26,278 nt of DNA from a virus. How positions within the stretch are numbered: the stretch's first letter is position 1; each line of letters starts with the position of its first letter. The notes beneath the pieces were generated by a model. That model was given only the letters and a program-made list of their open reading frames with translations, had not been told where the DNA came from and did no database searches. Positions 10,251 through 25,078 of the stretch are shown one piece after another. A program made the position numbers and the translations under genes. Where the stretch lies: positions 1 through 26,278 of the IMG/VR virus record IMGVR_UViG_3300017772_000099, one strand, 5' to 3'.

Positions 10251-10943
10251 ATGGGTAAGAAATTAGAATTAAAAGGTCAGACTTTTGGTAGGTTAACAGT
10301 TATTAAAGAAGAACCTGTAAGAAGTAATGATGGTAAAGTTAAGTGGTTTTGTAAATGCGACTGTGGTAATAATACAAGTACTACTGGTAAAGATCTAAAA
10401 AGTGGAGACACAAAGTCTTGTGGGTGTTTAGTAAAGGAGTGGGCTAGTAAGTCAGCCACAATAAGAAATACCACACATGGGTTGTGTGAACACCCTTTAT
10501 ACATTATATGGAGAGGTATGAGGGTTAGGTGTTATAAAAAGTGGAGCAAAAACTATAAAAATTATGGAGATAGGGGTATAACAGTGTGTGACTCTTGGGA
10601 AGAGGATTTCATAAACTTCTACAACGATATGTTGTTGGGGTATAAGGAGGGGTTGCAATTAGATAGGGTAGATAATGATAAGGGTTATTATAAAGAGAAT
10701 TGTAGGTGGGTGACTAACCAACAGAATCAGACGAATAAGGGATCAAAAATAGGGTCAACATCCAAGTATAAAGGTGTTTGTTGGTATAGAGGTGGTAATA
10801 GATGGTTAGCACAAATATATAAAGACGGTAAACATTATCACTTAGGTACATTCAAATGTGAACACGAAGCAGCCAAAGCTTACAACACTAAAGCATTGAC
10901 ACTCAACAGCGAATACGCTTACTTAAATAAAATAGAGGATTAG
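10251..10943 (+). CDS. AP2/HNH homing-type endonuclease
   Basis: A free-standing endonuclease of 230 residues. It has three parts. First, a Cys-rich N-terminal domain (GRLTVIKEE, then CKCDCG at residues 34-39 and SCGC at 56-59), probably a zinc-binding DNA reader. Second, an HNH catalytic region: IWRGMRVRC, YGDRGI, then LDRVDNDKGYYKENCRWVT at 137-155. Third, a C-terminal AP2 domain (residues 171-225: SKYKGVCWYRGGNRWLAQIY, HLGTF, EAAKAYN). This is the standard layout of phage AP2-HNH homing endonucleases, selfish genes that cut phage DNA lacking them. It sits 11 bases after the polymerase gene, a common homing site. Its ribosome site is weak (no clear GGAG). Confidence 0.93.
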   Translation: MGKKLELKGQTFGRLTVIKEEPVRSNDGKVKWFCKCDCGNNTSTTGKDLKSGDTKSCGCLVKEWASKSATIRNTTHGLCEHPLYIIWRGMRVRCYKKWSKNYKNYGDRGITVCDSWEEDFINFYNDMLLGYKEGLQLDRVDNDKGYYKENCRWVTNQQNQTNKGSKIGSTSKYKGVCWYRGGNRWLAQIYKDGKHYHLGTFKCEHEAAKAYNTKALTLNSEYAYLNKIED

Positions 10944-16478: not shown

Positions 16479-17561
16479 ATGAGCTTAAAGGATGATAAAT
16501 TAAAGTTACAAGTAATTAAATTAGACAATGAAGGATATACACAAACTAGAATTGGCATGATCGTGGGATTAGCACCTAACACTATTTCAGACTTTCTTAA
16601 TAAGAAGACATTTAATGTGTGGTGGAGTCAGTTTGATAAGGGGGTGGAGGAGTTTGGTGAGGCTTTTGAGAAGGTTAAACATAGCGAGAAGTACGAGAGT
16701 ATAGTTGCTGTTAATCTGGATCTAGATACTACCCCAGTGCCAATTAAGATTGAAACTACAGTAGGTAAGATACACGACGATTGTACACACTTTGTCATTC
16801 CAGATACGCAAGTAAAACCTAATATCAGTTTAGATTATTTACATTGGGTGGGTATGTATATTGCTAATCGTAAACCTGATGTGATAATCCACTTAGGCGA
16901 TCACGCAGATATGGAGTCTCTGAGTAGTTATGATAAAGGGAAGCGATCAGCAGAAGGTAAGCGAGTAAAACAAGATATTAAGTCTGCCATAGAAGGTATG
17001 AATGTATTGTTAAAACCTGTATATGATTTACAGAAGAAACAATTAGAAGAGTTCGGAGAGATCACATATAAACCACGTATGGTGCTAACTTTAGGTAATC
17101 ACGAGTACCGTATCAGCAGACATGTGGATGCTAATCCAGAGTTGTTCGGATTCTTAGGCTACGATGATCTCAAATACAAAGAAAATGGTTGGGAAGTATA
17201 TGACTTCTTAAAACCTGTAATTGTGAACGGTGTCACTTATGTTCACTTTATGGCTAACCCAATGACAGGCAAACCATACGGAGGTGCTGCATTAAATGTA
17301 TTAAAAAATGTAGGGGAGTCTTTTACACAAGGACACAAGCAAACACTGGACGTATCTACACGCTTTCTCCCTAGCAGTGGAAGACAACAATGGGCTATTA
17401 TAGCAGGTGCTTGTTATGTGCACGAAGAGGAATATAAAGGTTATCAAGGAAACCATCATTGGAGAGGTGTAATAGTCAAACATAATGTATCAGAAGGTAG
17501 TTATAACCCAATGTTTGTAGACTTAGATTACTTATCGAAGAGGTATTCAAAATGTACATAG
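16479..17561 (+). CDS. metallophosphoesterase with N-terminal helix-turn-helix
   Basis: A 360-residue calcineurin-like phosphoesterase. Metal-binding motifs: VIPDTQV (Asp109, Gln111 in place of the usual His), HLGDHAD (Gly140-Asp141), TLGNHEY (Asn207, His208) and TQGHKQT (Gly285, His286). Residues 5-48 form a helix-turn-helix (KLQVIKLDNEGYTQTRIGMI, then VGLAPNTISDFLN), so the enzyme probably binds DNA; a role as a nuclease or end-processing phosphatase follows, though substrate is unknown. Gln111 replaces the DxH histidine, seen in some phage members. The coding end (17501-17547) is nearly repeated at 19100-19146. Confidence 0.85.
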   Translation: MSLKDDKLKLQVIKLDNEGYTQTRIGMIVGLAPNTISDFLNKKTFNVWWSQFDKGVEEFGEAFEKVKHSEKYESIVAVNLDLDTTPVPIKIETTVGKIHDDCTHFVIPDTQVKPNISLDYLHWVGMYIANRKPDVIIHLGDHADMESLSSYDKGKRSAEGKRVKQDIKSAIEGMNVLLKPVYDLQKKQLEEFGEITYKPRMVLTLGNHEYRISRHVDANPELFGFLGYDDLKYKENGWEVYDFLKPVIVNGVTYVHFMANPMTGKPYGGAALNVLKNVGESFTQGHKQTLDVSTRFLPSSGRQQWAIIAGACYVHEEEYKGYQGNHHWRGVIVKHNVSEGSYNPMFVDLDYLSKRYSKCT

Positions 17562-18389: not shown

Positions 18390-19023
18390 GTTTAAAGGTA
18401 AAGTGGTTATATTAAATTCCCCCCCTAACTCAGGGAAGGATTCTATTGCAGAAGTATTGAATGATAGCTTAGATTGGGATTGGAATTGCTTTAAAGACCA
18501 CTTGTATGACTGTACCGCCACATTGTTTAATACAGATAAGTGGGATTTAATAGAGTGGGCTACAGATAGAGTAACTAAAGAAGTTCCACTTGAAGAGTTA
18601 TCTATACCATCAGATAAATATAAACTATTAGATAATATAGTTAAATCTAACAGAGCATTCACTTTAGAAGATGGTTATATACCACTGTCCCCTAGAGAAG
18701 CATTAATATATACATCTGAGGTGGTAATTAAGCCTACAATGGGAGAAGAATACTTTGGTAAGATAGCAGCAGAGAATATTGACTTAGATGAAGTTACAGT
18801 GTTCAGTGATGGCGGCTTTAATGAAGAGTTATTGCCCGTGATTGAGAGAGTAGGTGCTGAGAATGTATATGTAGTACAATGGAGTAGAGAGGGATGTTCA
18901 TTTAAAGGGGATAGTAGAAATTACCTTAAAGTACCAGATAATGTTGCTAAACTGGTGACTACCAACAATGGTACTATTGATGAGATAGTTGATGAAATAA
19001 TTAATTGGATAAGCGGAGAATAG
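18382..19023 (+). CDS. deoxynucleoside monophosphate kinase
   Basis: A 213-residue P-loop kinase like T4 gp1 and T5 dNMP kinase, converting dNMPs to dNDPs with ATP. Walker A is NSPPNSGKDSIAE (Lys19). Later motifs: LSPREALIYTSEVVIKPTMG (NMP-binding helix), VFSDGGFNEELLPVI (Walker B-like strand with Asp) and YVVQWSREGCSFKGDSRNYL, the Arg-rich lid. Length is normal for the family. It recycles monophosphates from degraded host DNA and dTMP from ThyX. Its gene ends three bases before a tiny membrane ORF. Confidence 0.87.
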   Translation: MSKFKGKVVILNSPPNSGKDSIAEVLNDSLDWDWNCFKDHLYDCTATLFNTDKWDLIEWATDRVTKEVPLEELSIPSDKYKLLDNIVKSNRAFTLEDGYIPLSPREALIYTSEVVIKPTMGEEYFGKIAAENIDLDEVTVFSDGGFNEELLPVIERVGAENVYVVQWSREGCSFKGDSRNYLKVPDNVAKLVTTNNGTIDEIVDEIINWISGE

Positions 19024-19026
19024 AAT

Positions 19027-19119
19027 ATGCAGTATTTAGGATTAGTACTTATTGGTTTATGGGTGATGAGCGTAGCAGCTTGGATTACAAGTATGGGACT
19101 TATAACCCAATGTTTGTAG
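19027..19119 (+). CDS. possible 30-aa membrane peptide
   Basis: A short frame MQYLGLVLIGLWVMSVAAWI followed by ten more residues; almost wholly hydrophobic, one membrane helix. GGAG lies eight bases before the ATG, a strong ribosome site. Its last seven codons run, out of frame, into the phosphoesterase relic (19100-19178), so it may be a gene cut and re-ended by that recombination rather than a native peptide. Confidence 0.4.
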   Translation: MQYLGLVLIGLWVMSVAAWITSMGLITQCL

Positions 19120-19178
19120 ATTTAGATTATCTATCAAAGAGGTATTATACACGGTGTAGGTATTTGGTTTGGTGTTAG
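19100..19178 (+). pseudogene. relic of a second metallophosphoesterase gene (3' end)
   Basis: Bases 19100-19146 match 17501-17547, the end of the phosphoesterase gene, at 43 of 47 positions. In the corresponding frame both encode YNPMFVDLDYLSKRY; all four differences are synonymous (GAC/GAT, TAC/TAT, TTA/CTA, TCG/TCA). The relic frame then runs on with an unrelated tail to a TAG at 19178. There is no start codon or upstream catalytic part. Because only silent sites differ, the fragment derives from a related functional gene, not from a fresh copy of the neighbour. Confidence 0.75.
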
Positions 19179-22426: not shown

Positions 22427-22702
22427 TCAGCACCTCTCTTCCACTGTGAGAGTAGAACCTAATGCACCTGTACATCTAGCCCACACCCTCAAACTATTCT
22501 TTGTAGCCACTCCTATAGCGTATGGGTAGTGTATATTACTGATTGTGTAATCTCCTAGATCATCTATACCAGGTTGACTTACACTCTCTTTTACAACTAC
22601 ACTAGCATACCCTTTGTTAAACATAGACAGAGGTACACCTACGTTTATAGCAGCTTCAGTGTTTATATCTACCCATGTATTACTTATTGGTATAGATGCC
22701 AT
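22427..22702 (-). CDS. probable virion-associated protein, 91 aa
   Basis: A small beta-sandwich-like protein: ASIPISNTWVDINTEAAINV, then YASVVVKESVSQP, and a C-terminal strand pair ending in GSTLTVEER. Short proteins of the 'IPISNTW' type occur beside structural genes in other phages. It begins in a TAATG overlap with a 46-residue ORF; AGGAGAG supplies the ribosome site. Role unproven, probably a capsid or tail accessory. Confidence 0.6.
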   Translation of the reverse strand: MASIPISNTWVDINTEAAINVGVPLSMFNKGYASVVVKESVSQPGIDDLGDYTISNIHYPYAIGVATKNSLRVWARCTGALGSTLTVEERC

Positions 22703-22842
22703 TAATCTCTCCTATTATTAATTTTCTTTATAGAAGTATCCTTCTTAATCTTCCTTGCCCTTCCATTTAGCCATACCTTTAAACCCAATAGCAGGAGCAA
22801 GAAATGAATCAGCAATAAACTGTAATGCTCCATTTCCGACAT
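22702..22842 (-). CDS. 46-aa membrane protein nested in the end of the 182-aa gene
   Basis: The frame starts MSEMEHYSLLLIHFLLLLLG and ends in a Lys/Arg-rich tail: one membrane helix (residues 7-24) and a basic cytoplasmic side. The ATG at 22842 has AAGGA upstream at a usable distance, and the TAA overlaps the next ATG (TAATG). It overlaps the end of the 182-residue membrane protein by 98 bases in another frame. Size and topology resemble small phage holin/antiholin or lysis-timing proteins, but that is only a possibility. Confidence 0.48.
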   Translation of the reverse strand: MSEMEHYSLLLIHFLLLLLGLKVWLNGRARKIKKDTSIKKINNRRD

Positions 22843-23293
22843 GTTTACTTCTTCCTTCTCTATCGTAAAGGATGTATGCTGCAACCATGTAATATGCAAT
22901 AATAACACTATTATATATCCACAACTCTCCTAAATAAGTAATAGGGGCTAACCCTATAGTCTCTTGCAAGTAATTATTAACATGTATATAATAATAATTG
23001 AACCAACTTTCTGAGCCTAGATAATTAATACCTAACTGAACTAATAGAATACCTAACACTTTATAAAGTAGTGAAATATGTTTCATACCTAATAGACATA
23101 TCATACCTAATACTGAAGATAAGGAGTATATCAAGTAATCATAACCTTCAGGTATGCTTACCACTTCTAATATAAAGACAGATAACAATACAGTGGATAG
23201 GAATACTCCACACACAGCAAACCCTTGTTTAGTAGGGTGGGTAAATGTTATGAGGATACATACAATGATTAATAACGTCCATAATGTCATCAT
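22745..23293 (-). CDS. polytopic membrane protein, 182 aa
   Basis: About five membrane helices (roughly residues 2-18, 24-46, 53-70, 73-92, 124-143) and a basic, Gly-rich C-terminal tail of 35 residues (FIADSFLAPAIGFKGMAKWK) likely in the cytoplasm. Not recognised. In the lysis/tail cluster it may act at the inner membrane during late infection. It starts ATGATG, four bases after the stop of a 19-codon frame. The ribosome site is weak (AAGAAG), in line with coupling to that mini-gene. Confidence 0.68.
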   Translation of the reverse strand: MMTLWTLLIIVCILITFTHPTKQGFAVCGVFLSTVLLSVFILEVVSIPEGYDYLIYSLSSVLGMICLLGMKHISLLYKVLGILLVQLGINYLGSESWFNYYYIHVNNYLQETIGLAPITYLGELWIYNSVIIAYYMVAAYILYDREGRSKHVGNGALQFIADSFLAPAIGFKGMAKWKGKED

Positions 23294-23297
23294 ATTA

Positions 23298-23357
23298 TTA
23301 CTTCTTTATTTGAGGTTTATCTGAACTCTCACGAGGTACTGTCACTGGCCTAGCCAT
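23298..23357 (-). CDS. possible 19-aa peptide MARPVTVPRESSDKPQIKK
   Basis: A tiny frame of 19 residues, basic and Pro-rich, not hydrophobic. It has AAGGAAAG at a good distance before its ATG and ends four bases before the next gene, which itself lacks a strong site. It could be a real micro-protein or a translational coupler. I do not recognise it. Confidence 0.42.
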   Translation of the reverse strand: MARPVTVPRESSDKPQIKK

Positions 23358-23379: not shown

Positions 23380-23721
23380 TTAGTTAATGTTATAATGATT
23401 CTCAATCACTTGTTCTATTTCTCTATCTATTGCTGCGAAGTCAGACTTAACTATACATTCACAGTCAACAGGTATACAACCAGATGAGTATAAAATAGCA
23501 TTACAACCTTTAGCTATAAGATTATCTACTATCTCTTCCCCATCTCTAGTAGTTAAGATTCTATCTACTAACACTATATCATAACATAGTAAGTCTTCTA
23601 AGTCAACACTTTCGTCTACATTAGAGAAAATAACATTGTCTTTAGCAAAGAGGTAAGCATTCAATACCATTCGGTGTATTTCATTATCTTCTATAAGAGC
23701 AATGTTAATCTTTCTTATCAT
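23380..23721 (-). CDS. stand-alone response-regulator receiver (CheY-like) protein
   Basis: A 113-residue single-domain protein with receiver-domain layout. Strand 1 INIALIEDNEIHR supplies the acidic pair (Glu11-Asp12). Strand 3 YDIVLVDRILTTRDGEE has the phospho-acceptor position Asp53 and the usual Gly. Strand 4 NAILYSSG has the switch Ser79/80, and strand 5 ECIVKSDF has the conserved Lys92. Length (113) is close to the normal 120. No output domain and no kinase gene is seen. Start ATG at 23721 with GAGG six bases upstream; it overlaps the spanin-like gene by 17 bases. Receiver domains are rare in phages; it may intercept a host phosphorelay. Confidence 0.75.
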   Translation of the reverse strand: MIRKINIALIEDNEIHRMVLNAYLFAKDNVIFSNVDESVDLEDLLCYDIVLVDRILTTRDGEEIVDNLIAKGCNAILYSSGCIPVDCECIVKSDFAAIDREIEQVIENHYNIN

Positions 23722-24046
23722 CTTTAGCCTCTAATAACTCTTGCATTATCTTATTATAAGTGGCTAACTGTACTCTCTGAGATTCAATGATACCTATATA
23801 CTTATGCTTCTCCACCTGACACTCATTAACTGACCGTTGTAGCTCTGTAACCTTATCAGTTAAGGCTTCTATCTTAGCCTCTAGTTTCACTTTATGTTCT
23901 TTATTCATAATAGTTAAACATATATTAGGGTTTTTAAATATGAACAGTATTAACCCTATGAAGAATAGTATAAAGAGTATACCTGTCAGTCCTACTTTAT
24001 CGTACAATAATGGGATTCCATTAATTATATCTACTAGCCATCCCAC
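23705..24046 (-). CDS. TM plus coiled-coil protein, spanin-like
   Basis: A 113-residue protein with one membrane helix (residues 19-37, GLTGILFILFFIGLILFIF) followed by a long charged coiled coil (50-107: KVKLEAKIEALTDKVTELQ, IESQRVQLATYNK). This is the shape of an inner-membrane spanin (Rz), which bridges to the outer membrane in the last step of Gram-negative lysis, and the holin-like gene is just upstream. No Rz1 lipoprotein partner is visible. The start is GTG (24046) with AGGAG six bases upstream. Confidence is limited because any TM/coiled-coil protein would look like this. Confidence 0.6.
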   Translation of the reverse strand: MGWLVDIINGIPLLYDKVGLTGILFILFFIGLILFIFKNPNICLTIMNKEHKVKLEAKIEALTDKVTELQRSVNECQVEKHKYIGIIESQRVQLATYNKIMQELLEAKDDKKD

Positions 24047-24194: not shown

Positions 24195-24713
24195 CTAATC
24201 CTTCTTATTGTTATTACTAAATAGAGCCACGTTCTTCATAGAACTACCACGAGTAGTACCTACAAAGTAAGCTACAGAGCTAATCCAAGCTGTTAGATAA
24301 GAACCAAATATAGTGTCTATCACTCGTTGATTAGCTTCTGGTATTACATGGAACATAAGAGTAGCTGTAAAGGCAATTAAACCTACTGTCAATATGTACA
24401 TTATATTAGCAGGGGTGTTACTATCTTTATGTGCTTCTCTGGCATTAGATATATCTTTAAGTTCAGATGTCTGTAACTCTACATCTAACTCCTTCATTCT
24501 AATCTTAAAGGCGTAATCAGCACTCTTGATCTTAAACACTTGTTCTGGTGTTGCAGACTCTACAAACTGCTCTAAAGCAACCTCATCTTTAATCTCTACA
24601 CCTACAGCATCACTCACAGCTTTAATAGCCAGTGAAGGTAATGTAGCACCTCCTGATAAGACTGCACCTACGATGTGAGGAGCATACTCCTTTAATTTAT
24701 CTGTCCAGCTCAT
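24195..24713 (-). CDS. holin-like protein, 172 aa
   Basis: An N-terminal amphipathic/hydrophobic segment (residues 11-35, APHIVGAVLSGGATLPSLAI), a charged middle (40-100), then two membrane helices (102-122 ANIMYILTVGLIAFTATLMF and 132-152) and a TTRGSSMKN tail. This is the layout of the holin family found beside endolysins in gene-transfer agents and phages (three-segment type, with conserved C-terminal GSSxKN). Predicted role: timed permeabilisation of the inner membrane for lysis. No endolysin is seen in the window. Starts in an ATGA overlap with the gene upstream. Confidence 0.72.
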   Translation of the reverse strand: MSWTDKLKEYAPHIVGAVLSGGATLPSLAIKAVSDAVGVEIKDEVALEQFVESATPEQVFKIKSADYAFKIRMKELDVELQTSELKDISNAREAHKDSNTPANIMYILTVGLIAFTATLMFHVIPEANQRVIDTIFGSYLTAWISSVAYFVGTTRGSSMKNVALFSNNNKKD

Positions 24714-25078
24714 TTATCCTTCTCCTTAAATTCATCTGGAAATTCATACTCCCCAGTTTTATATGTATGGTTAGGGTCAAATGTAAATAACCAATCTATA
24801 AGATTAGCCCAGAAGTAAATGTAAGAGTTCTTAACGCCTCCCCTACTCTCCTCTAATACTTTCAACCCTGTGACACCTGATATAGACTTATATGTAGTTC
24901 TATACACATAAGAACAAGCGGCTATATCTTCTCCATGAGCGCAAGAAAAGAAGTAATCACTAAGTTCATCCCACTCTCTGTGCAAAGATAATACTATTAC
25001 ATTCCTAGTAAAACCTAATACTTTTAATATGAAGAATACGGGGACTGATAGGATGAATAATAGTATATTTCTAAGCAT
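24710..25078 (-). CDS. small membrane protein of the lysis cluster, 122 aa
   Basis: One N-terminal membrane helix (residues about 3-22, RNILLFILSVPVFFILKVLG) and a soluble part with two Cys (SCAHGEDIAACSYVYR), Tyr/Trp-rich, ending in a charged tail. From memory similar small proteins sit beside holin genes in other phages. Function unknown; it may be part of the lysis system or an antiholin. It is followed by the holin-like gene with a 4-base overlap. Confidence 0.65.
   Translation of the reverse strand: MLRNILLFILSVPVFFILKVLGFTRNVIVLSLHREWDELSDYFFSCAHGEDIAACSYVYRTTYKSISGVTGLKVLEESRGGVKNSYIYFWANLIDWLFTFDPNHTYKTGEYEFPDEFKEKDK

Follow-up and report, generated by a model that had tools for sequence, protein, structure and literature searches.

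We analysed the full length of a viral DNA of 26,278 nucleotides (IMG/VR record IMGVR_UViG_3300017772_000099, referred to here as the window). A preliminary description, made from the sequence alone, had placed a CheY-like receiver domain at positions 23380 to 23721. A real receiver reading frame does lie there, on what had to be corrected to the minus strand. In the order of transcription, the tail-fibre genes are followed by these features:

24710..25078, minus strand: small protein with an N-terminal transmembrane segment, at the head of the cassette, kept in the related phages L091 and L175
24195..24713, minus strand: holin-like membrane protein (phrog_1544)
23705..24046, minus strand: membrane protein of 113 amino acids with a single transmembrane segment (about residues 18-36) and a coiled coil, GTG start, weak Rz-like match
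23728..23732, minus strand: AGAGG resembling a Shine-Dalgarno site, 6 nt upstream of the receiver start codon
23705..23721, minus strand: 17-nt overlap of the coil gene and the receiver gene; overlaps of 4 to 17 nt recur in most related modules
23380..23721, minus strand: stand-alone receiver-domain protein of 113 amino acids, predicted to lack helix alpha4, with E11/D12, D53, G61, S79/S80 and K92
23298..23357, minus strand: 19-amino-acid mini-gene MARPVTVPRESSDKPQIKK with a good ribosome site, kept in three related phages
22745..23293, minus strand: polytopic membrane protein with three or four predicted transmembrane segments, in the same operon, 37-38% identical in relatives

The receiver reading frame starts with an ATG at 23721, and its codon usage is coding-like in its own frame only. 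AGAGG is a plausible ribosome site for this start, and the 17-nt overlap with the upstream coil gene makes translational coupling of the two genes possible.

As had been proposed, the receiver gene is followed by a mini-gene and by a polytopic membrane protein gene, and this order is kept in relatives. The earlier placement of the receiver among late/lysis genes is confirmed as well. Counterparts of the mini-gene (MSGPSSTPRESADKPKVRK in L084 and L175, MSAPSTAPRNSADKPKVRK in L168) always lie directly upstream of the polytopic-protein gene in the related phages. Homologues of the holin-like gene in Vibrio and Oceanospirillum phages adjoin M15/amidase endolysins; searches of the window clade contigs, which are incomplete, gave no endolysin of the families M15_3 or Amidase_2. 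At its 3' end the polytopic gene also contains an out-of-frame ORF (22702-22842, minus strand, MSEMEHYSLL...) that runs past the stop codon of that gene and encodes one transmembrane segment and a basic tail. It is about 50% identical in L091 and L175 and is possibly a real overlapping gene.

By profile searches, the only Pfam family matched by the window protein was Response_reg, at a weak E value of 0.018 that is under the gathering score, and five of its seven NCBIfam matches were response regulators. The L091 homologue gave a stronger match to Response_reg (E 4.9e-6, also just under the gathering score), and all nine of its NCBIfam matches fell in two-component families. When we searched the PDB with a profile built from two sequences, the matches listed were response-regulator or phosphorelay entries, including the NtrC1 receiver at an E value of 5.2e-7. 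We therefore assign the protein to the PF00072 superfamily through the homology of its clade, not through a Pfam threshold, and regard it as confirmed that it is a real, divergent receiver domain.

The five landmarks named in the preliminary description are all present: the acidic pair E11-D12, the phospho-acceptor D53, the switch residues S79/S80, K92, and the glycine G61 at D53+8. At about 29% identity, the active site is invariant across the three full clade members; E11, D12, D53, G61 and K92 all belong to the 26 columns, of 103, that are invariant (P about 8e-4, hypergeometric), and the switch position is also conserved, as S79 or a Thr, in the three homologues. Conservation of Asp53 and Lys92, on which the proposal had been made to depend, was thus borne out in the related phages. 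Comparison of the L091 and L175 receivers gave a dN/dS of 0.143/0.971, about 0.15, which places the clade receiver under purifying selection. Like CheY, Spo0F, NtrC1 and DesR, the window protein combines the alpha/beta fold with an acidic pair, phospho-Asp, Thr/Ser, Lys and a Gly at D+8. It differs from these PF00072 receivers in scoring under the gathering threshold, in having helix alpha4 essentially missing and in the residues that follow the lysine, which are S/G/D-D-F in the clade (S-D-F in the window) in place of the usual P-F.

At 113 amino acids the window protein is a receiver only, with no PhoB/OmpR-type C-terminal DNA-binding domain, as originally described. No HATPase_c kinase was found in 12 phage records, and every matching record among the 12 carried exactly one receiver, never more. 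There was no match to the window in the PADLOC defence library. Since the phage has no kinase, phosphorylation of Asp53 would have to come from a host kinase or from a small phosphodonor. A receiver with neither an output domain nor a kinase of its own could also act as a decoy, draining or blocking host histidine kinases late in infection and so silencing an envelope-stress or other host response, and host kinases are known targets of phages, PIT4 being an example (PMC10714779). Against such a role, which we think unlikely, production late and from a lysis-linked cassette would be poor timing for a factor of host takeover, and a sponge leaves unexplained the recurrent position, described below, behind a membrane/coil gene in or beside lysis genes.

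The DNA polymerase and phosphoesterase genes of the window phage led to its relatives; tblastn against GenBank phages had given no close homologue of the window receiver or of its L091 homologue, and initial scans of IMG/VR had given no match to the receiver, the holin or the polytopic protein. Two related marine phages have receiver homologues with the same synteny, at 29% and 28-31% identity; the L091/L168 receiver is 29% identical to that of the window (pairwise E 2e-9), and the L175 receiver is 75% identical to that of L091. The gene was found in all four related phages that cover this spot, and the coil gene directly precedes it in all three in which that side is covered. L168 and L175 repeat the order holin, coil, receiver with 8-nt overlaps. 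An apparent absence of the receiver from L084 was rejected, because that contig starts within the last 13 codons of the gene (MDVLDGHINKEI).

The polymerase and phosphoesterase regions yielded two further observations. A gene of HNH/AP2 type after the window DNA polymerase (10251-10943, plus strand) probably encodes a homing endonuclease; in L084 such a gene follows the phosphoesterase gene, in L172 it occupies two other places, and in L089 a C-terminal remnant of it lies after the polymerase, so that it looks mobile. A short ORF at 19005-19178 (plus strand) repeats the C-terminal end of the phosphoesterase encoded at 16479-17561 (NPMFVDLDYLSKRY) and represents a partial duplication.

AlphaFold2 run on a three-sequence alignment, shallow as that alignment is, gave a model of the receiver with a pLDDT of 84.5 and a pTM of 0.80; a single-sequence prediction was poor (pLDDT 40) and was set aside. 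In the model, a central sheet is combined with helices alpha1-3 and alpha5 in receiver order, and the elements run beta1-alpha1-beta2-alpha2-beta3-alpha3-beta4-beta5-alpha5, with no alpha4 between beta4 and beta5. The Foldseek matches listed against the PDB were receivers (DesR, NtrC1 and VraR), and alignment of the model to receivers with VIA-align gave Z scores of 13 to 14 over 102 to 112 aligned residues at 2.1 to 2.9 A. The suggestion that the protein has a receiver fold, which a different predicted fold would have overturned, was therefore upheld (Z about 14).

Among the internal parts of the model, confidence is lowest where alpha4 is missing (pLDDT about 62). The loss of this helix is also indicated, independently of the AlphaFold2 model, by the spacing between the switch Ser/Thr and the lysine, which is 13 to 14 residues in the window clade (13 from Ser79 to Lys92 in the window), compared with 22 in CheY and 20 to 23 in canonical receivers; pattern-derived spacings of 10 to 15 in some bacterial receivers and of 17 in L176 were discarded by eye as mis-hits on an earlier lysine. 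The window receiver does not have the intact alpha4-beta5-alpha5 output face of a canonical CheY-type protein. On the evidence of the model and the spacing, the window clade has an atypical receiver with a reduced alpha4-beta5-alpha5 face in which helix alpha4 is predicted to be essentially absent, a point missed in the preliminary description.

The overlap of the receiver gene with a spanin-like gene, also noted previously, is real and measures 17 nt, but the likeness of the upstream product to a spanin is weak (phrog_739, Rz-like spanin, E 0.0021), and we noticed no Rz1 partner for it among the ORFs listed. Positive charge flanked the coil side of the transmembrane segment in every coil partner scored for topology, by a simple charge rule for which an Rz control was uninformative. 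This pattern suggests that the coil is cytoplasmic. Such a coil would be within reach of a cytoplasmic receiver, and its topology would be opposite to that of an i-spanin. The spanin call for the upstream gene is thus doubtful.

The preliminary description knew of few comparable phage proteins. This is only partly right, as such proteins occur in at least six other lineages, under the annotations PhoB, CheY-like or hypothetical, and without exception they are encoded within or next to lysis genes. Altogether, a stand-alone receiver immediately following a gene for a small membrane/coiled-coil protein was found in seven phage lineages, among which are five kinds of Alteromonas phage. None of these receivers has a kinase or a DNA-binding domain, their reading frames usually overlap the upstream gene, and they lie among the endolysin, holin and spanin genes of a lysis cassette, except in one lineage, where the receiver is beside the cassette. 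In every lineage the coil/receiver junction is an overlap of 4 to 17 nt or a gap of a few nucleotides. Because the lineages were obtained from receiver searches and are not a random draw, we claim no enrichment P value.

The gene orders differ in detail. An IMG/VR phage that is unrelated to the window phage by its other inspected genes (L176) has a TM-coil gene, a receiver (E 4e-12), a GH19 endolysin, an Rz-like and an Rz1-like gene. The Alteromonas phages R8W and H4 (Autographiviridae) have holin, TM-coil, receiver; R9Y1, named as a siphovirus, has TM-coil, receiver, GH108 lysozyme. In XX1924 and PB15, the receiver lies between an XhlA gene (phrog_937, E 1e-12 in XX1924) and a gene for a DUF5675 protein or an M15 peptidase, followed by a GTA holin; the profile match to the PB15 receiver begins upstream of its annotated start, which has therefore probably been placed too late. 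XhlA, a PBSX-type lysis accessory membrane protein (PHROG 'hemolysin'), is like the window coil protein a small lysis-cassette protein with a coil and one transmembrane segment, whereas the window protein, whose transmembrane segment is N-terminal, is not recognised as XhlA. The myovirus V22 has a papain-like amidase, a coil protein with a weakly hydrophobic N-terminus, a receiver, an Rz-like gene and a 2-TM protein, with DUF5675 nearby. The schitoviruses V19 and R22Y have coil and receiver, and in V19 DUF5675 lies nearby on the opposite strand. Between lineages, most coil partners show no recognisable homology, and a shared C-terminal docking motif was not significant among them, except between R8W and R9Y1 and close kin.

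The GenBank name 'hybrid sensor histidine kinase - response regulator' for the V22 protein (L217:2992-3441) is not supported, nor is 'DNA-binding response regulator' for that of R8W (L178:4013-4474); both are lone receivers. Other candidates were set aside. Most CheY matches in GenBank phages (Listeria, Salmonella, Acinetobacter, faecal contigs) look bacterial and were not counted; many GenBank 'phage' records (the Listeria, Salmonella, Enterococcus and Acinetobacter series) appear to contain bacterial chromosomal response regulators, probably from contaminating host DNA. Stenotrophomonas phage Bhz63 was rejected as a comparable case because its receiver has room for an output domain and is accompanied by a CreC-like kinase gene; this PhoP-like response regulator and the kinase gene, a pair at L184:4001-5547, possibly form a complete two-component system.

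The phospho-Asp is retained in the window clade, R8W, R9Y1, XX1924, PB15, V22 and L176. In two schitovirus receivers, not annotated as such, the phospho-Asp and the Lys have both been lost, whereas the coil partner remains:

L183:3998-4450: aspartate-less receiver of V19
L216:3001-3447: aspartate-less receiver of R22Y

Phosphorylation is therefore not essential in every lineage, and in that of V19 and R22Y the receiver fold must either work without it or be decaying. These two phages, together with the absence from the window clade of alpha4, part of the usual output face, would fit an adaptor that acts in lysis independently of phosphorylation, with the receiver fold serving as a scaffold or chaperone that binds the coil, the holin or the endolysin, and the phospho-site kept in some lineages though not needed. 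The retention of the phospho-Asp in all the other lineages, and the invariance of the five landmarks in the window clade at about 29% identity, speak against this explanation; we consider it improbable, if still worth serious attention.

Junctions of lysis and tail-fibre genes are known insertion points, and the receiver might be no more than a passenger (moron) gene in a permissive late position with no role in lysis. The Alteromonas examples do lie in exchangeable host-recognition modules (PMC10579305). A passenger would not be expected in all four related phages, nor under purifying selection, nor overlapping the same kind of partner across unrelated lineages, and we regard this explanation as quite improbable.

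Several of these proteins have been published in other terms. For V22 gp30, A5 gp11 and P24, the published description is of 'CheY-like' auxiliary metabolic genes that belong to host-recognition modules (PMC10579305; PMC7289586), class II being given for V22; R8W g48 was described as 'PhoB', associated with low phosphate (PMC8228385). We inspected the V22 and R8W loci, and took A5 and P24 from PMC10579305 alone. V22 gp30 and R8W g48 resemble the window receiver in standing alone without a kinase and in position, with a small membrane/coil gene just before them and tail-fibre and lysis genes alongside, and R8W g48 has no DNA-binding domain; unlike the window protein, the Alteromonas CheY-like/PhoB receivers are full-length, with alpha4, at about 147-153 amino acids. 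These annotations (PMC8228385, PMC7289586, PMC10579305) are what favours an auxiliary metabolic or transcriptional function. However, the receiver family (Response_reg) is the only one matched by the R8W and R9Y1 proteins, which have no DNA-binding domain, the V22 protein is a 149-amino-acid receiver without a kinase, and the neighbours are lysis genes, not metabolic genes, which makes such a function very improbable. In the non-subscription literature that we covered, we found no paper connecting CheY-like phage receivers with the lysis cassette. What is new here is the missing alpha4, the doubt about the spanin call, and the recurrence of coil and receiver in lysis cassettes of unrelated phages.

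The functional suggestions of the preliminary description, action on a host phosphorelay or a timing of lysis, are reasonable and in part supported. The repeated occurrence of the receiver in lysis cassettes, coupled to a membrane coil, points to a role in lysis more than to a generic kinase sponge. The most likely role for the window protein, which we put forward tentatively, is that this divergent, phosphorylatable receiver of the lysis cassette, apparently without alpha4, modulates lysis while tethered to the membrane. The receiver would be a late product whose message overlaps the one for a small membrane protein with a probably cytoplasmic coil, and would dock onto this membrane-tethered coil. 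A host histidine kinase or a small phosphodonor would set the phosphorylation state of Asp53, and that state would alter the coil-receiver complex so as to advance or delay the action of holin and endolysin, tying lysis to the state of the host. Phage lysis is tied to a signal in VP882, through VqmA and quorum sensing, and in T4 lysis inhibition; by analogy, a phospho-receiver would take the place of the DNA-binding receptor or periplasmic antiholin of those systems.

The presence of the same arrangement in several unrelated phages suggests that viruses may tie the moment of lysis to host signalling. It is conceivable, though we hold this with less assurance than the role proposed for the window protein, that a membrane-anchored cytoplasmic coiled coil and a stand-alone phospho-receiver form a two-gene module, recurrent in unrelated tailed phages, by which lysis is plugged into the two-component signalling of the host; the window clade would have a minimised form of it without alpha4. 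For a lytic phage, the choice of when to lyse is the central one, and only a few cases are known in which lysis is linked to the physiology of the host. If our proposal is true, host histidine kinases would be wired directly to lysis, several genes published as 'auxiliary metabolic genes' would be reclassified, and the form without alpha4 would stand out among receivers for its small size and its changed output face. The module is testable in cultured Alteromonas phages (R8W, PB15, XX1924, R9Y1 and V22).
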